A stretch of 40,892 nucleotides of DNA, taken from the NCBI GenBank assembly GCA_013151445.1, contig JAADIG010000069.1, forward strand, positions 1 through 40,892. The letters are read 5' to 3'. A program made the translations under genes and the position numbers. Source of the DNA: Actinomycetota bacterium. Its GTDB lineage: Bacteria > Actinomycetota > Acidimicrobiia > Spongiisociales > UBA5794. Below the pieces are notes generated by a model. The model made no database searches, was not told where the DNA came from, and was given only the letters and a program-made list of their open reading frames with translations. This document shows, one piece after another, positions 4,473 through 15,590 of the stretch. Position 1 is the first letter of the stretch. Every line of letters starts with the position of its first letter.

Positions 4473-4942
4473 AAATCGATCACATCCGGAGGGCCACCGT
4501 CGGACTCGTCCTCGGGGCGCACACCACCAAACGGGTTTCCGGGTTGGGCGAAGGGACCACCGATCGTGCGAACCTCGAAACGATTCTTGAGCATTCGGGC
4601 GCCCAGCCTGCGCAGGACCTCCCTCACGCCGGGGACGAGCAGCAGAAACCCGATCGTGTCGGTGATGAACCCCGGAGTAACCAGCAGCGCACCCGAAACA
4701 AGAATCATGCCCCCGTGGGTGATTTCCTTTGTAGGAATCTCCCCCTGGGCGAAGGTCGCCTGCACCTTCCGCCAGGCTCCCCTGCTCTGTCGCGAAACAA
4801 GGGCAGCACCGATCAACGCCGTCATGATGACGAACAAGATCGTCGATCCCCAACCGACCGATTCCGACACTCTCAGAAAGAGCGCGATTTCGGCGATGGG
4901 CATCGCCACAAACAGGAGAAACAGAAAGCTACTTGTTCTCAT
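4469..4942 (-). CDS. fxsA: FxsA family membrane protein
   Basis: 157 aa. Starts MRTSSFLFLLFVAMPIAEIA. It has an N-terminal hydrophobic segment, the family's PIAEIALFLRV stretch, a second hydrophobic helix (GSTILFVIMTALIGAALV), then GGMILVSGALLVTPGFITD and LLLVPGVRE. FxsA proteins are small inner-membrane proteins; the E. coli member relieves phage T7 exclusion by F plasmid, but the normal role is unclear. An upstream ATG at 4978 would overlap selA. The ATG at 4942 is preferred because a TATCCT box ends 7 nt before it. First gene of the minus-strand chain and divergent from selA. Confidence 0.88.
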   Translation of the reverse strand: MRTSSFLFLLFVAMPIAEIALFLRVSESVGWGSTILFVIMTALIGAALVSRQSRGAWRKVQATFAQGEIPTKEITHGGMILVSGALLVTPGFITDTIGFLLLVPGVREVLRRLGARMLKNRFEVRTIGGPFAQPGNPFGGVRPEDESDGGPPDVIDL

Positions 4943-4949
4943 GCCTGTG

Positions 4950-4971
4950 AGGATACCGCGACGGGTATCCT
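4950..4971. promoter_or_regulatory. Symmetric divergent promoter (back-to-back -10 boxes) between fxsA and selA
   Basis: An 8-bp perfect inverted repeat, AGGATACC at 4950-4957 and GGTATCCT at 4964-4971, with a 6-bp spacer. Each arm carries a TATCCT hexamer, one per strand, each ending exactly 7 nt before the ATG of selA (4979) or fxsA (4942). Seen directly: the symmetry and spacing. Inferred: two leaderless promoters sharing one dyad that could also bind a dimeric regulator. Confidence 0.5.
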
Positions 4972-4978
4972 GCGCCAC

Positions 4979-6340
4979 ATGAGCCTACGCGATCTTCCGG
5001 GTGTTGACACTCTTTGCACCACCCTCACAACAAGTCAAACAGCACACGATCTTCCAGCAATGGTCATCACCGATGTCGCTCGCCGGGCGATCGAGCGCAC
5101 CAGGGCCGCCCTCATCGCCGGAGAGGATCCGCCGTCGGCAGAGACCACGGCTGCAAACGAACTCGCACAGCTCGCACAATCCGCGACCCGACCTGTGATA
5201 AACGCTACCGGCGTGTTGCTCCACACCAACCTCGGACGAGCGGCTGTCCACCCCAGGGCCGCTGAGGCCGCTGCCACAACGCTGCGTTCCTCCTCCAATC
5301 TTGAGTTCGATCTCGCCACGCAACATCGTGGTGGTCGGTCGAGCTACGGCAAATCTCTTCTCACTGCCCTCACCGGAGCCGAAGCCGCACTCATCGTTAA
5401 CAACAACGCCGCGGCCTTGTTCCTCACCCTCGCGGCACTGTCGAGCGGACATCGAACAGTCGTCTCGCGTGGCGAACTCATCGAAATCGGTGGTTCGTTC
5501 CGACTCCCCGAACTCATGGCCGCAACGGGAGCGATTATTGATGAGGTAGGCACGACAAACAGAACTCGAAAGGGGGACTACGAACGTGTGCTGATGGGAG
5601 CCGCGCTCGCGTTGAAGGTGCATCCGTCCAACTACCAGGTCGCAGGGTTCACTGAGGAAGCCTCCTGGGCTGAAGTCGCCGACGCGGCACACGCGCACGG
5701 CGTTCCACTCGCGGCCGACGTGGGATCAGGCCTTCTCGACGCAACGGTGCCGTGGATTCCCGGACCCCCACCGAAGTGGCTGACCAACGAACCCGGAGTC
5801 CGCCAGACCCTGGAGGACGGTGCGGATCTCGTCCTGTTCTCTGGTGACAAGCTGATCGGTGGTCCACAGGCGGGCATCATCGTCGGTACCAGGGACCTCA
5901 TTGTGCGACTGTCGAAACATCCGATCGCCCGCAGCGTGCGGATATCTGCCGGGGCCCTCGCCGCCCTCGAAACAACTCTTGCGCTCTACGCAAATGATCA
6001 GACACTCGAGATCCCGTTCTGGCGCCAAGCAACGGCACAAAGAGACGAACTCTCGGAACGCCACCAATTGTTAATCGACAGTGTCCCGCTCGAAGGGACG
6101 CTCATCGAGACAGAATCTGTACCGGGAGCGGGCACCGTTCCTGGGGCAGGTATCCCAACAGTCGCGGCAGCGTTCACCTGCGATGCAGACCGCACATGGG
6201 CTGATCTGCTCCGAAGGCGGTTGCCGGTCGTGACACGCCGACAGGATGGCCGTCTTGTCGTAGACCTCCGGTCAACCGACCGCGACACGGATCAGCTAGT
6301 GGCCGAGGCTCTCACCGAAGTCGCGGGGACCGGCGGGTAA
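4979..6340 (+). CDS. selA: L-seryl-tRNA(Sec) selenium transferase SelA
   Basis: 453 aa. PLP enzyme that converts seryl-tRNA(Sec) to selenocysteinyl-tRNA(Sec) using selenophosphate; family members form large rings in the cytosol. The diagnostic motifs are RPVINATGVLLHTNLGRA (about 71-88), VHPSNYQVAGFTEE, and SGDKLIGGPQAGI with the PLP lysine at about residue 291. The length matches the family. The ATG is placed by the TATCCT box 7 nt upstream; an open frame extends upstream but lies across fxsA. Its stop overlaps the selB start by one base (TAATG), so the two are an operon. selD and selC are not in this window. Confidence 0.97.
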   Translation: MSLRDLPGVDTLCTTLTTSQTAHDLPAMVITDVARRAIERTRAALIAGEDPPSAETTAANELAQLAQSATRPVINATGVLLHTNLGRAAVHPRAAEAAATTLRSSSNLEFDLATQHRGGRSSYGKSLLTALTGAEAALIVNNNAAALFLTLAALSSGHRTVVSRGELIEIGGSFRLPELMAATGAIIDEVGTTNRTRKGDYERVLMGAALALKVHPSNYQVAGFTEEASWAEVADAAHAHGVPLAADVGSGLLDATVPWIPGPPPKWLTNEPGVRQTLEDGADLVLFSGDKLIGGPQAGIIVGTRDLIVRLSKHPIARSVRISAGALAALETTLALYANDQTLEIPFWRQATAQRDELSERHQLLIDSVPLEGTLIETESVPGAGTVPGAGIPTVAAAFTCDADRTWADLLRRRLPVVTRRQDGRLVVDLRSTDRDTDQLVAEALTEVAGTGG

Positions 6341-8124
6341 TGCCGATCATCGCGACCGCTGGCCATGTCGACCACGGCAAGTCGACCCTAGTCAACGCCC
6401 TCACCGGGCGCGACCCGGATCGCTGGGCCGAGGAAAAGGAGCGTGGACTCACGATCGACCTCGGGTTTGCTTGGACAACCCTCGCCGAATCAGTGGACGT
6501 GGCGTTCGTCGACGTGCCCGGCCACGAACGATTCATCAAGAATATGCTCGCAGGAATCGGGGGTCTCGATGTTGCGTTGCTCGTGGTGGCCGCTGATGGT
6601 GGATGGATGCCGCAGACCGAGGAACACACCGCCGTGCTCGACCTGCTCCAAATCGAAACAGGTGTCATTGCACTCAGCCGTATTGACCTCGTCGACGACG
6701 ACCTCCGCGAGCTTGCCGAGCTAGAGATCGCGGAGCGAATCGCAGGAACGACACTTGACGGATGGCCGGTCGTTGCGGTGTCCGCGGTCACGGGCGATGG
6801 CATCAACGACATTCGCAAAGCACTGCTAACCGCGCTCGGATCCGTGAAACACACCAACTCGGAACCGCACCTCTGGGTCGATCGATCATTCACGGTCGAC
6901 GGTGCAGGGACTGTCGTGACCGGGACGCTGACAGGCGGCCCACTGGGACTGGACTCCAAACTAGTGACATGGCCATCCGGTGACGCAATGCGCATACGCG
7001 GGTTGCAGACAATGGAACGATCGGTAGCCGAAGTAACCGCGGGTTCACGAGTTGCTCTCAACCTCGGTGGTATCGGCGCCGAGTCCATCGAGCGGGGAAC
7101 ACTGCTGGCCCCGCCAGATTCCTTCCGACCGACTGCTCGTTTCCTTGCACAGATACGCCGGGTTCGTTCCGTCGAGGGTGTATCTGATCGTGGCGCCTAT
7201 CACATCCACGTCGGATCGGGGAGCTGGCCAGCAACACTGCGTATCCTCGAAGACGTCAACGAACAGGGCGGTATCGCCCTCATCACAACCGACAAACCTG
7301 TTCCGCTACACGTCGGCGACCGGTTGATCGTTCGCGACGCAGGCCGCCAGCAGGTAGTCGCTGGAGGGCAGGTGTTGGACCCCCACCCGGCTCAAAAGAG
7401 TCGACAATTCCTCCCGACAGCGCCTCTTCTCCAGCGAGCGCTCGCCGACGACGGCCAGTTCGCAGACACTCTCCTGGCGGTGCGCGGGTCCGCAACGATA
7501 GACGAGTTGCGCCGCGACACCGGTCAACTCCCGACAACCGGAACTACGATCGCGGACTCTGTCTTTACGGAAGCACATCTAGGACAGCTCTCACAGATGC
7601 TGATCGAGCAGGTGAACTCCTATCACTCCAGGTACCCGCTACGACCCGGAGCACCGAAGGCGACACTCGCAGAACTGCTCGACATTGACCTTGCAGTCGT
7701 CGAACACCTCGCTACCAGCAACAACGAACTGCAAGACGATGGACCGACGGTCAGGAAGACCGAGTTCGAAATTACGCACAGCCCCGAAGATGAGGCCGCA
7801 TGGAAGAGGGCCCGTGCGATGCTTGTAGCCAGCGGTCTTGGCGTTCCGCGCGTGCCCGAATTGGGGCTAAACGAAGAATTCCTCCACGCGGTCATTCGGG
7901 CAGGGAAACTGCAGAGAATCACAAGCGATCTCGTCTACCTGCCAGAGCAGATGGACGAGATCGCTTCACGACTACAGAATATGGACGACGGGTTCGGTGT
8001 CGCTCAATTCAGAGATGCAATGGACATCAGTCGCCGCCAGGCAGTGCCGCTGCTTGAATGGCTCGACGCCCACGGGTGGACATTGCGCCGGGGTGATTCC
8101 CGAACGGTTAAACGGCGGCTCTAG
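6340..8124 (+). CDS. selB: Selenocysteine-specific elongation factor SelB
   Basis: 594 aa GTPase that brings Sec-tRNA(Sec) to UGA codons by also binding a bSECIS hairpin in the mRNA. G1 is AGHVDHGKST, switch II is DVPGHERFIKNMLAG, and the G4 position is the divergent SRID in place of NKxD. Domains II and III follow (WVDRSFTVDGAGTVVTGTL and on). The C-terminal 200 residues are the winged-helix repeats that bind SECIS RNA (VAQFRDAMDISRRQAVPLLEWL is typical of the last one). Co-transcribed with selA. The last 17 nt overlap the convergent whiB gene. A substrate mRNA is present at 14790-15590. Confidence 0.97.
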   Translation: MPIIATAGHVDHGKSTLVNALTGRDPDRWAEEKERGLTIDLGFAWTTLAESVDVAFVDVPGHERFIKNMLAGIGGLDVALLVVAADGGWMPQTEEHTAVLDLLQIETGVIALSRIDLVDDDLRELAELEIAERIAGTTLDGWPVVAVSAVTGDGINDIRKALLTALGSVKHTNSEPHLWVDRSFTVDGAGTVVTGTLTGGPLGLDSKLVTWPSGDAMRIRGLQTMERSVAEVTAGSRVALNLGGIGAESIERGTLLAPPDSFRPTARFLAQIRRVRSVEGVSDRGAYHIHVGSGSWPATLRILEDVNEQGGIALITTDKPVPLHVGDRLIVRDAGRQQVVAGGQVLDPHPAQKSRQFLPTAPLLQRALADDGQFADTLLAVRGSATIDELRRDTGQLPTTGTTIADSVFTEAHLGQLSQMLIEQVNSYHSRYPLRPGAPKATLAELLDIDLAVVEHLATSNNELQDDGPTVRKTEFEITHSPEDEAAWKRARAMLVASGLGVPRVPELGLNEEFLHAVIRAGKLQRITSDLVYLPEQMDEIASRLQNMDDGFGVAQFRDAMDISRRQAVPLLEWLDAHGWTLRRGDSRTVKRRL

Positions 8125-14693: not shown

Positions 14694-14789
14694 AGCTCGG
14701 CAGTGTAGGTGGTTCCCCTGCTAGCCCAATCCACCGTCGGAGGCGTCGCCAATCCTTCCCGAAATGTCAAGAATCGGTACAGTCGGGGC

Positions 14790-15590
14790 ATGGCATCCAC
14801 GGCAGTAGCGATCGGCTTCGTACTCATACTCCTCACCTGGATCGTGTATCTGGGTGCAATCCCTCGTGAGCAAGTGCCCGCTCGCCCGGTGCTCCATGTC
14901 GTAGTGATGGTTTTCGGTGTTGTTGCGGTGCTGGCCGGCCTTGGGGGTGGCGGGATTTCCCTCGGTGTGTTCCCAATCGCTTTCGGGATCGTGGCCATCG
15001 GTCTTGCGTCACTCTTCTTTTTCCTTCTCACGATCGCCCGCCTACCCGACAGCGAGATTCGAGTAGCCGTCGGCGATCCGATGCTCGCGTTCACAGCATT
15101 CGATTCGTCGGGAACCGCCATTGACACAGCCGACTGGAGGGGTCAACGGGTTCTCCTGAAGTTCTTCCGCGGCAAGTGGTGACCGTACTGTTCCGCTGAG
15201 TTGCAGCGGTTCGAACGGATGCAGCCCCTACTCGGGCGATACCGGGTTACCACGGTGGCAATCAGCAAGGACAGTGTCGATGACGCGCACGAGCATCGGG
15301 CACGCGACGGACTCTCGTTCGCAGTCCTCTCCGACCCCGAGTTACGGGTTATCGAAAAGTACGGCCTCGTACACCGCAACGGGTTCGAGTTCGTCACCCG
15401 CTTTGTTTTGGGATTCGCCCTCGGATACCCGATCGGTTTCAAGCGAATGGCAATCCCGACGACCCTCCTGATAGACGAACAGGGCATCATTCGTTGGATT
15501 GACCAGGCGGAGGACTACCGTCTTCGTGGCGATGCTGGCCGGATCGAGCAGGCGTTGCGCGATGTTTGGGGATGGCACGGCGTGGAGTGA
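14790..15590 (+). CDS. Membrane-anchored peroxiredoxin/thioredoxin-fold selenoprotein (UGA read as Sec)
   Basis: 266 aa if the in-frame TGA at 15180-15182 is selenocysteine (Sec131). Three hydrophobic helices (about 5-24, 34-53 and 57-83) anchor an AhpC/TSA-like thioredoxin-fold domain (about 92-266). The redox motif reads FFRGKW, then Sec, then PYC (Sec131, Cys134), where Cys-containing homologues of this type have WCPYC. After the TGA the same frame stays open to 15590 with typical peroxiredoxin strands (VTTVAISKDSVDDA, FAVLSDPELRVIEKYG, PTTLLIDEQGIIRW). A hairpin lies 10 nt after the UGA, and selA-selB are about 7 kb upstream. TACAGT ends 6 nt before the ATG. Standard gene calling would split it into two ORFs. 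The likely role is thiol- or peroxide-dependent redox chemistry at the membrane; the substrate is unknown. Confidence 0.9.
15193..15209 (+). promoter_or_regulatory. Candidate bacterial SECIS hairpin
   Basis: CCGCTG (15193-15198) and CAGCGG (15204-15209) form a perfect 6-bp stem with the 5-nt loop AGTTG, starting 10 nt after the UGA. Apical loops of bacterial SECIS elements lie about 16-25 nt after the UGA and contain exposed G/U bases that SelB reads, which fits. It is inside the coding frame, as expected for a bSECIS. Confidence 0.7.

Follow-up and report, generated by a model that had tools for sequence, protein, structure and literature searches.

Selenoproteins that combine an AhpC-TSA domain with selenocysteine (Sec) in a UxxC pair have been known for two decades. 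Such pfam00578 proteins were catalogued in 2006 (PMC1794560), 2008 (PMC2398784), 2022 (PMC9312934) and 2026 (PMC13188914). They have been named Prx-like thiol:disulfide oxidoreductases (type protein WP_010940744.1), with a UxxC or UxxU site (PMC1794560, PMC9312934), or 'Prx-like 1' (PMC2398784). The protein described here is encoded in a stretch of 40,892 nucleotides, hereafter called the window, and shares with them the AhpC-TSA domain and a UxxC site with Sec in first place. It appears to differ from them in two respects. A three-helix anchor is not mentioned in the accessible parts of those descriptions, and Cys forms are far commoner in Prx-like 1 (225 Sec against 2,740 Cys; PMC2398784), whereas the subfamily of the window consists of 76 Sec forms and one Cys form. 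Selenoproteins of the Redoxin family (PF08534) likewise have the domain and the UxxC site in common with the window protein; PMC13188914 lists them without architecture, and they may already include this clade. Iodothyronine deiodinases (PMC9141512) are membrane-anchored thioredoxin-fold selenoproteins too, but these animal enzymes have another active site and substrate, so the likeness is one of layout and not of family.

Two sets of Cys proteins come close to the window protein. Soluble or lipoprotein peroxiredoxin-like proteins with the motif FYRGxWCPYC/FC (L021-L023, L069, L073-L077, L079, L128) have the same domain with Cys exactly at the position of Sec131, but lack the three-helix anchor and the hairpin described below and fall into separate clades. 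Membrane proteins with FFRGNWCPLC (L068, L070, L072) or FYRGSWCPIC (L071) resemble the window protein in their N-terminal membrane helices, their redoxin domain and a terminal motif of the DQTDNYRVRPEP type, similar to WIDQAEDYRxRGD. These, however, carry Cys for Sec, are 22% identical to the window protein and form a separate clade with 100/100 support.

The WCxxC site and the thioredoxin fold are also found in ResA and TlpA, thiol-disulfide oxidoreductases that are anchored by a single helix and have their domain on the non-cytoplasmic side. On the corresponding NCBIfam models the window protein remained below the cut-off (ResA 40.2 against 170 bits, TlpA 32.8 against 230 bits), as it did for the SelL-related redox protein NF040769 (29.7 against 120 bits), and none of the NCBIfam models (June 2026) reached its cut-off. 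SelU/PRXL2 (PF13911, AhpC-TSA_2) did not match the window protein at E 0.001, and matched one of nine members of alignment A1 at 7.8e-5. The original prediction regarded a fusion of three membrane helices to such a domain as an unfamiliar form. This holds for the three-helix, nearly Sec-only subfamily, which seems to be the new part, but not for Sec in pfam00578 UxxC proteins, which was already established. In the accessible part of the openly available literature no mention of the three-helix membrane form was found, and an earlier sighting is possible.

Reading frame and conservation of the Sec codon

Two same-frame ORFs, predicted to form a single gene, do join across a TGA (14,790..15,590, + strand). 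The gene encodes 266 amino acids with Sec at codon 131 (TGA, 15,180..15,182, +) and its UxxC partner Cys134 (15,189..15,191, +), which is invariant in alignments A1 and A3. The TGA is in frame with both ATG 14,790 and the terminal TGA at 15,588-15,590. The same ATG is the start codon in a genus mate (L009), which supports the choice of start. Six bases 5' of the ATG we read by eye a TACAGT (14,778..14,783, +), identical in the genus mate, which might be an actinobacterial -10 box of a leaderless gene; a sigma-70 promoter scan gave no match.

An in-frame TGA alone is weak evidence. The window holds 100 ORFs of at least 200 amino acids once TGA is read through, so homology must decide on the Sec reading. 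The AhpC-TSA match spans the TGA (residues 94-236, E 8.7e-25; PF00578, 87.5 bits against a curated cut-off of 26), and the Pfam match to Redoxin spans it too. Among the relatives third codon positions were the most variable both 5' and 3' of the TGA, which shows both halves to be under protein selection, and the C-terminal part was conserved to the last motif, WIDQAEDY, in all of them. Scanning contigs from 84,980 species gave eight relatives with 38-68% identity, all eight with TGA at the same codon and the motif KFFRGxWUPYC. Further orthologues were obtained by profile searches in which stops were read through and U was treated as C, after which the genes themselves were read. In the resulting full-length set (n=77) the codon was TGA in 76 genes and TGC in one. 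Some rows contained two TGA, or one TGA and one TAG; the idea that these hold an additional Sec, or read some other stop through, was rejected, as the extra stop was the gene's own terminal stop. The prediction that UxxC stands where Cys relatives have CxxC agreed with the alignment, in which Cys stands at the position of Sec131 in L110, the one Cys orthologue, and in 15 Cys relatives farther removed.

SECIS hairpin, Sec machinery and the Cys orthologue

The hairpin expected after the UGA was found at 15,193..15,209 (+), with a 6-bp stem (15,193-15,198/15,204-15,209) and the loop AGUUG (15,199-15,203), which is AGUUG or AGUUA across orthologues. The bSECIS model asks for a loop of 3-9 nt, a stem of 4-16 bp, G within the first two loop bases, a spacing of 16-37 nt and an MFE of -7.5 or lower (PMC13188914). 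The hairpin fits these constraints with a loop of 5 nt, a stem of 6 bp, G in second place, a loop beginning 16 nt 3' of the UGA and -16.1 kcal/mol. It was present in all 76 Sec genes, 75 of which form all six pairs and one five. In 57 sequences (44 distinct) 100% of the cells were paired and 18 cells had changed on both sides, counts that are inflated by kinship among the sequences. The covariation score was 0.226 against 0.067 for shuffled ones and was reached in 0 of 500 shuffles.

Part of this covariation was synonymous. In 57 of 57 sequences the last base of the Arg140 codon is complementary to the second base of codon 135, CGA occurring with GTC, CGG with TCC or GCC, and CGC with AGC or CGC, and GCT at Ala136 was always paired with CAG replacing CGG. 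The leucine codon in the loop was TTG or TTA in 76 of 76 Sec genes, while elsewhere in 57 of these genes the two make up 217 of 1723 leucine codons. Judged from the codons, the synonymous part is something that protein selection cannot account for. Since the UA pair 18-26 co-occurs with each of the three states that pair 14-30 takes (in L014, the window and L013), the changes are not a single inherited block. Energy z-scores were modest (-1.0 to -1.7; a weak -1.5 for the window alone), and the support for the hairpin is the covariation, not the z-score.

Both selA and selB lie in the window, as the original prediction had it. The product of selA (4,544..6,340, +) scored 417.8 bits on TIGR00474 from residue 148 onward; the listed ORF extends some 147 codons too far at the 5' end, and with homology beginning near 4,985 the true start is probably there. 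That of selB (6,340..8,124, +) scored 330 bits on TIGR00475, above the cut-off. The gene for tRNA-Sec (selC) is on another contig of the source genome, C135, and selD on contig C8:12449-13375 (L019), with an in-frame TGA inside, so that SelD is itself probably a selenoprotein. Among 379 genomes SelB was found in 51 of the 56 carriers of the Sec form and in 165 of the 323 others (Fisher p 3e-9); the five carriers with no SelB match are perhaps incomplete MAGs. In several genomes the gene adjoins or is near selB (G868:C211, G706:C161, G879:C60, G745:C1). A TlpA/ResA-like lipoprotein (L138, C4:5149-5460) is a further selenoprotein candidate in the source genome. It has the sequence VIFWAEWUSVCRREL, in which TGA is the first position of the UxxC site (WAEWUSVC).

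The search for Cys/Sec exchange among relatives, suggested with the prediction, gave one case. L110 (genome G907, contig C30) has the motif FFRGQWCPFC in a single uninterrupted frame and is nested within the Sec clade. Its hairpin is lost, with two of six pairs formed and CTG as the loop leucine codon, and its host is not among the SelB-positive genomes. By its sequence and place in the tree L110 is a Sec-to-Cys reversion inside the Sec clade.

These observations bear on two readings in which no Sec is made. The TGA could be a true stop ending a 130-residue three-helix peptide, or parting two separate proteins, as the standard code and conventional annotation would have it. Such a stop would sit at the active site within a thioredoxin fold, ahead of a second half conserved to WIDQAEDY, in a family whose Cys orthologue is a single frame and whose SECIS covaries; we hold this very improbable. 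A pseudogene or a one-base sequencing error would also leave two frames parted by a single TGA, but the same TGA recurs in dozens of independently assembled genomes and relatives differ mainly at third codon positions on either side of it, which makes this reading the most improbable of all. Conservation, selection and the Cys orthologue led us to reject both. What had been named as grounds for giving up the prediction came out in its favour, as homology runs through the TGA, the genome has selC and selD, and dozens of independent assemblies share this codon. From codon conservation and SECIS covariation we conclude that UGA codon 131 is almost certainly recoded as Sec.

Distribution and related membrane redoxins

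Most of the full-length orthologues came from a single phylum-level group, to which Myxococcota MAGs led. Within the order of the source genome the gene was present in 2 of 138 genomes, and 396 genomes of the source phylum gave no further full-length match. SelB was found in 93 of 109 genomes of the order. The tree placed the family in a clade of 76 rows (75 Sec, one Cys; support 100/99), and the window protein with that of the genus mate in a subclade of 16 rows (100/99), the rest of which were mainly Myxococcota-type. The presence of Sec-competent relatives without the gene, together with the nesting among Myxococcota-type rows, suggests that a lineage already competent for Sec gained the gene horizontally; repeated loss is the alternative. 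Nearest plasmid relatives matched in the redoxin domain only, at no more than 33% identity.

Several further observations were made. Five genomes (G637, G894, G604, G710, G797) each carry more than one full-length member of the family, two or three in number. A MAG titled 'Rhodobacterales' (G529, L011) has the phylum neighbours of the Myxococcota MAGs and seems to be publicly mislabelled. A second group of membrane redoxins (L078, L080-L085, L127) has the motif FYRGHWUPFC, always with TGA, and downstream hairpins unlike those of the first group. Two apparently exported redoxins with FYRGGWUPYC (L086, L087; TGA) branch next to a Cys clade and represent a Sec/Cys exchange of their own among soluble forms.

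Membrane anchor, active site and proposed reaction

The three membrane helices of the original prediction were recovered by AlphaFold2 (51 aligned sequences, pLDDT 95.5, pTM 0.91) and by hydropathy. They span residues 2-23 (14,793..14,858, +), 34-57 (14,889..14,960, +) and 60-81 (14,967..15,032, +), and the model makes a three-helix anchor very probable. The AhpC-TSA/Redoxin domain, located by Pfam and fold search, covers residues 94-243 (15,069..15,518, +). Positive charge is concentrated between helices 1 and 2 (K+R 2.5; N-terminus 0.4, second loop 0.5), and by the positive-inside rule the redoxin domain therefore probably faces the cytoplasm.

In the model a thioredoxin fold follows helix 3, and its first active-site helix starts directly after Sec131. 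The nearest solved folds were Bcp/PrxQ, AhpE and ResA. Sec131 falls at the Ser/Thr position of the peroxiredoxin (S/T)xxC, which in the ResA CxxC is taken by the first Cys. Cys134 aligns with the peroxidatic Cys of peroxiredoxins, and Arg127 occupies the position of the peroxiredoxin Pro. Pro223 of a PT loop invariant in 51 rows (15,456..15,458, +) would be, by analogy with thioredoxin folds, the cis-Pro facing the active site. The word 'peroxiredoxin-like' of the original prediction is thus right for the fold but not for the active site. A canonical peroxiredoxin was rejected, as PxxxTxxC (or TxxU) is replaced by R127GxWU131PYC134, with Arg at Pro and Sec at Thr; the fold is peroxiredoxin-like and the active site, with its UxxC, thioredoxin-like. 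Cys134 is the sole Cys, so any bridge within the protein must join it to Sec131.

The following course of events is proposed. UGA codon 131 would be decoded as Sec by SelB and tRNA-Sec, directed by the downstream SECIS hairpin, and the three helices would hold the product in the inner membrane with its redoxin domain probably on the cytoplasmic side. The selenolate of Sec131 would be the attacking nucleophile, Cys134 would close a selenenylsulfide with it, and a cytosolic thioredoxin-type reductant would reopen this bond. The likeliest reaction would be reduction of peroxides, above all lipid hydroperoxides, at the membrane or close to it. We hold redox use of the UxxC pair to be highly likely and, the choice of substrate left aside, a SECIS-directed, three-helix-anchored UxxC redox selenoprotein to be likely. 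Peroxides rather than disulfides as substrate is a tentative assignment, to which we give slightly less than even weight.

Absence of the PxxxTxxC peroxidase signature counts against an ordinary peroxidase, and the main rival is a disulfide reductase or isomerase acting, in the manner of ResA/TlpA, on membrane proteins or small molecules. The alignment of WUxxC with the WCxxC of ResA, the ResA-type structures among the nearest folds and the name Prx-like thiol:disulfide oxidoreductase given to pfam00578 UxxC selenoproteins (PMC1794560) speak for this role; on the predicted cytoplasmic, reducing side there would be less need for disulfide work, and the best structural matches were the Bcp/PrxQ and AhpE peroxiredoxins. 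We regard it as quite possible, though somewhat less likely than peroxide reduction. The pair could also handle metal, arsenic or mercury, or sense redox state, with the helices as partner module, in line with the many prokaryotic selenoproteins predicted to bind metal (PMC13188914) and with the capacity of three membrane helices to pass on a signal. The protein has no selenol or thiol besides those of Sec131 and Cys134, and no metal-resistance neighbour occurs among the loci checked, which renders this unlikely. A search of eight loci for an operon pointing to the substrate gave no shared partner gene apart from the genus mate (PPIase, PHP). The neighbours elsewhere were unrelated; among them are a glutaredoxin-rhodanese fusion (L014) and another AhpC-TSA protein (L012).

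Peroxide reduction, still the reading we put forward, would fit into a wider picture that is speculative and on the whole doubtful: an almost exclusively Sec family of membrane redoxins that repair lipid hydroperoxides of the inner membrane and pass between phyla together with their SECIS, a counterpart of GPX4 in function, not in descent. The family is easily missed, because standard gene calling cuts the protein short at this TGA and so removes its active site, and detection pipelines that need Cys homologues (PMC12013277) could also drop it. L110 adds a bacterial case of Sec-to-Cys change, a kind said to be rare, and together with its Sec orthologues offers natural pairs for testing Sec against Cys and the decay of a SECIS. 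With the ratio of Sec to Cys reversed relative to Prx-like 1, the job of this subfamily seems to demand selenium.
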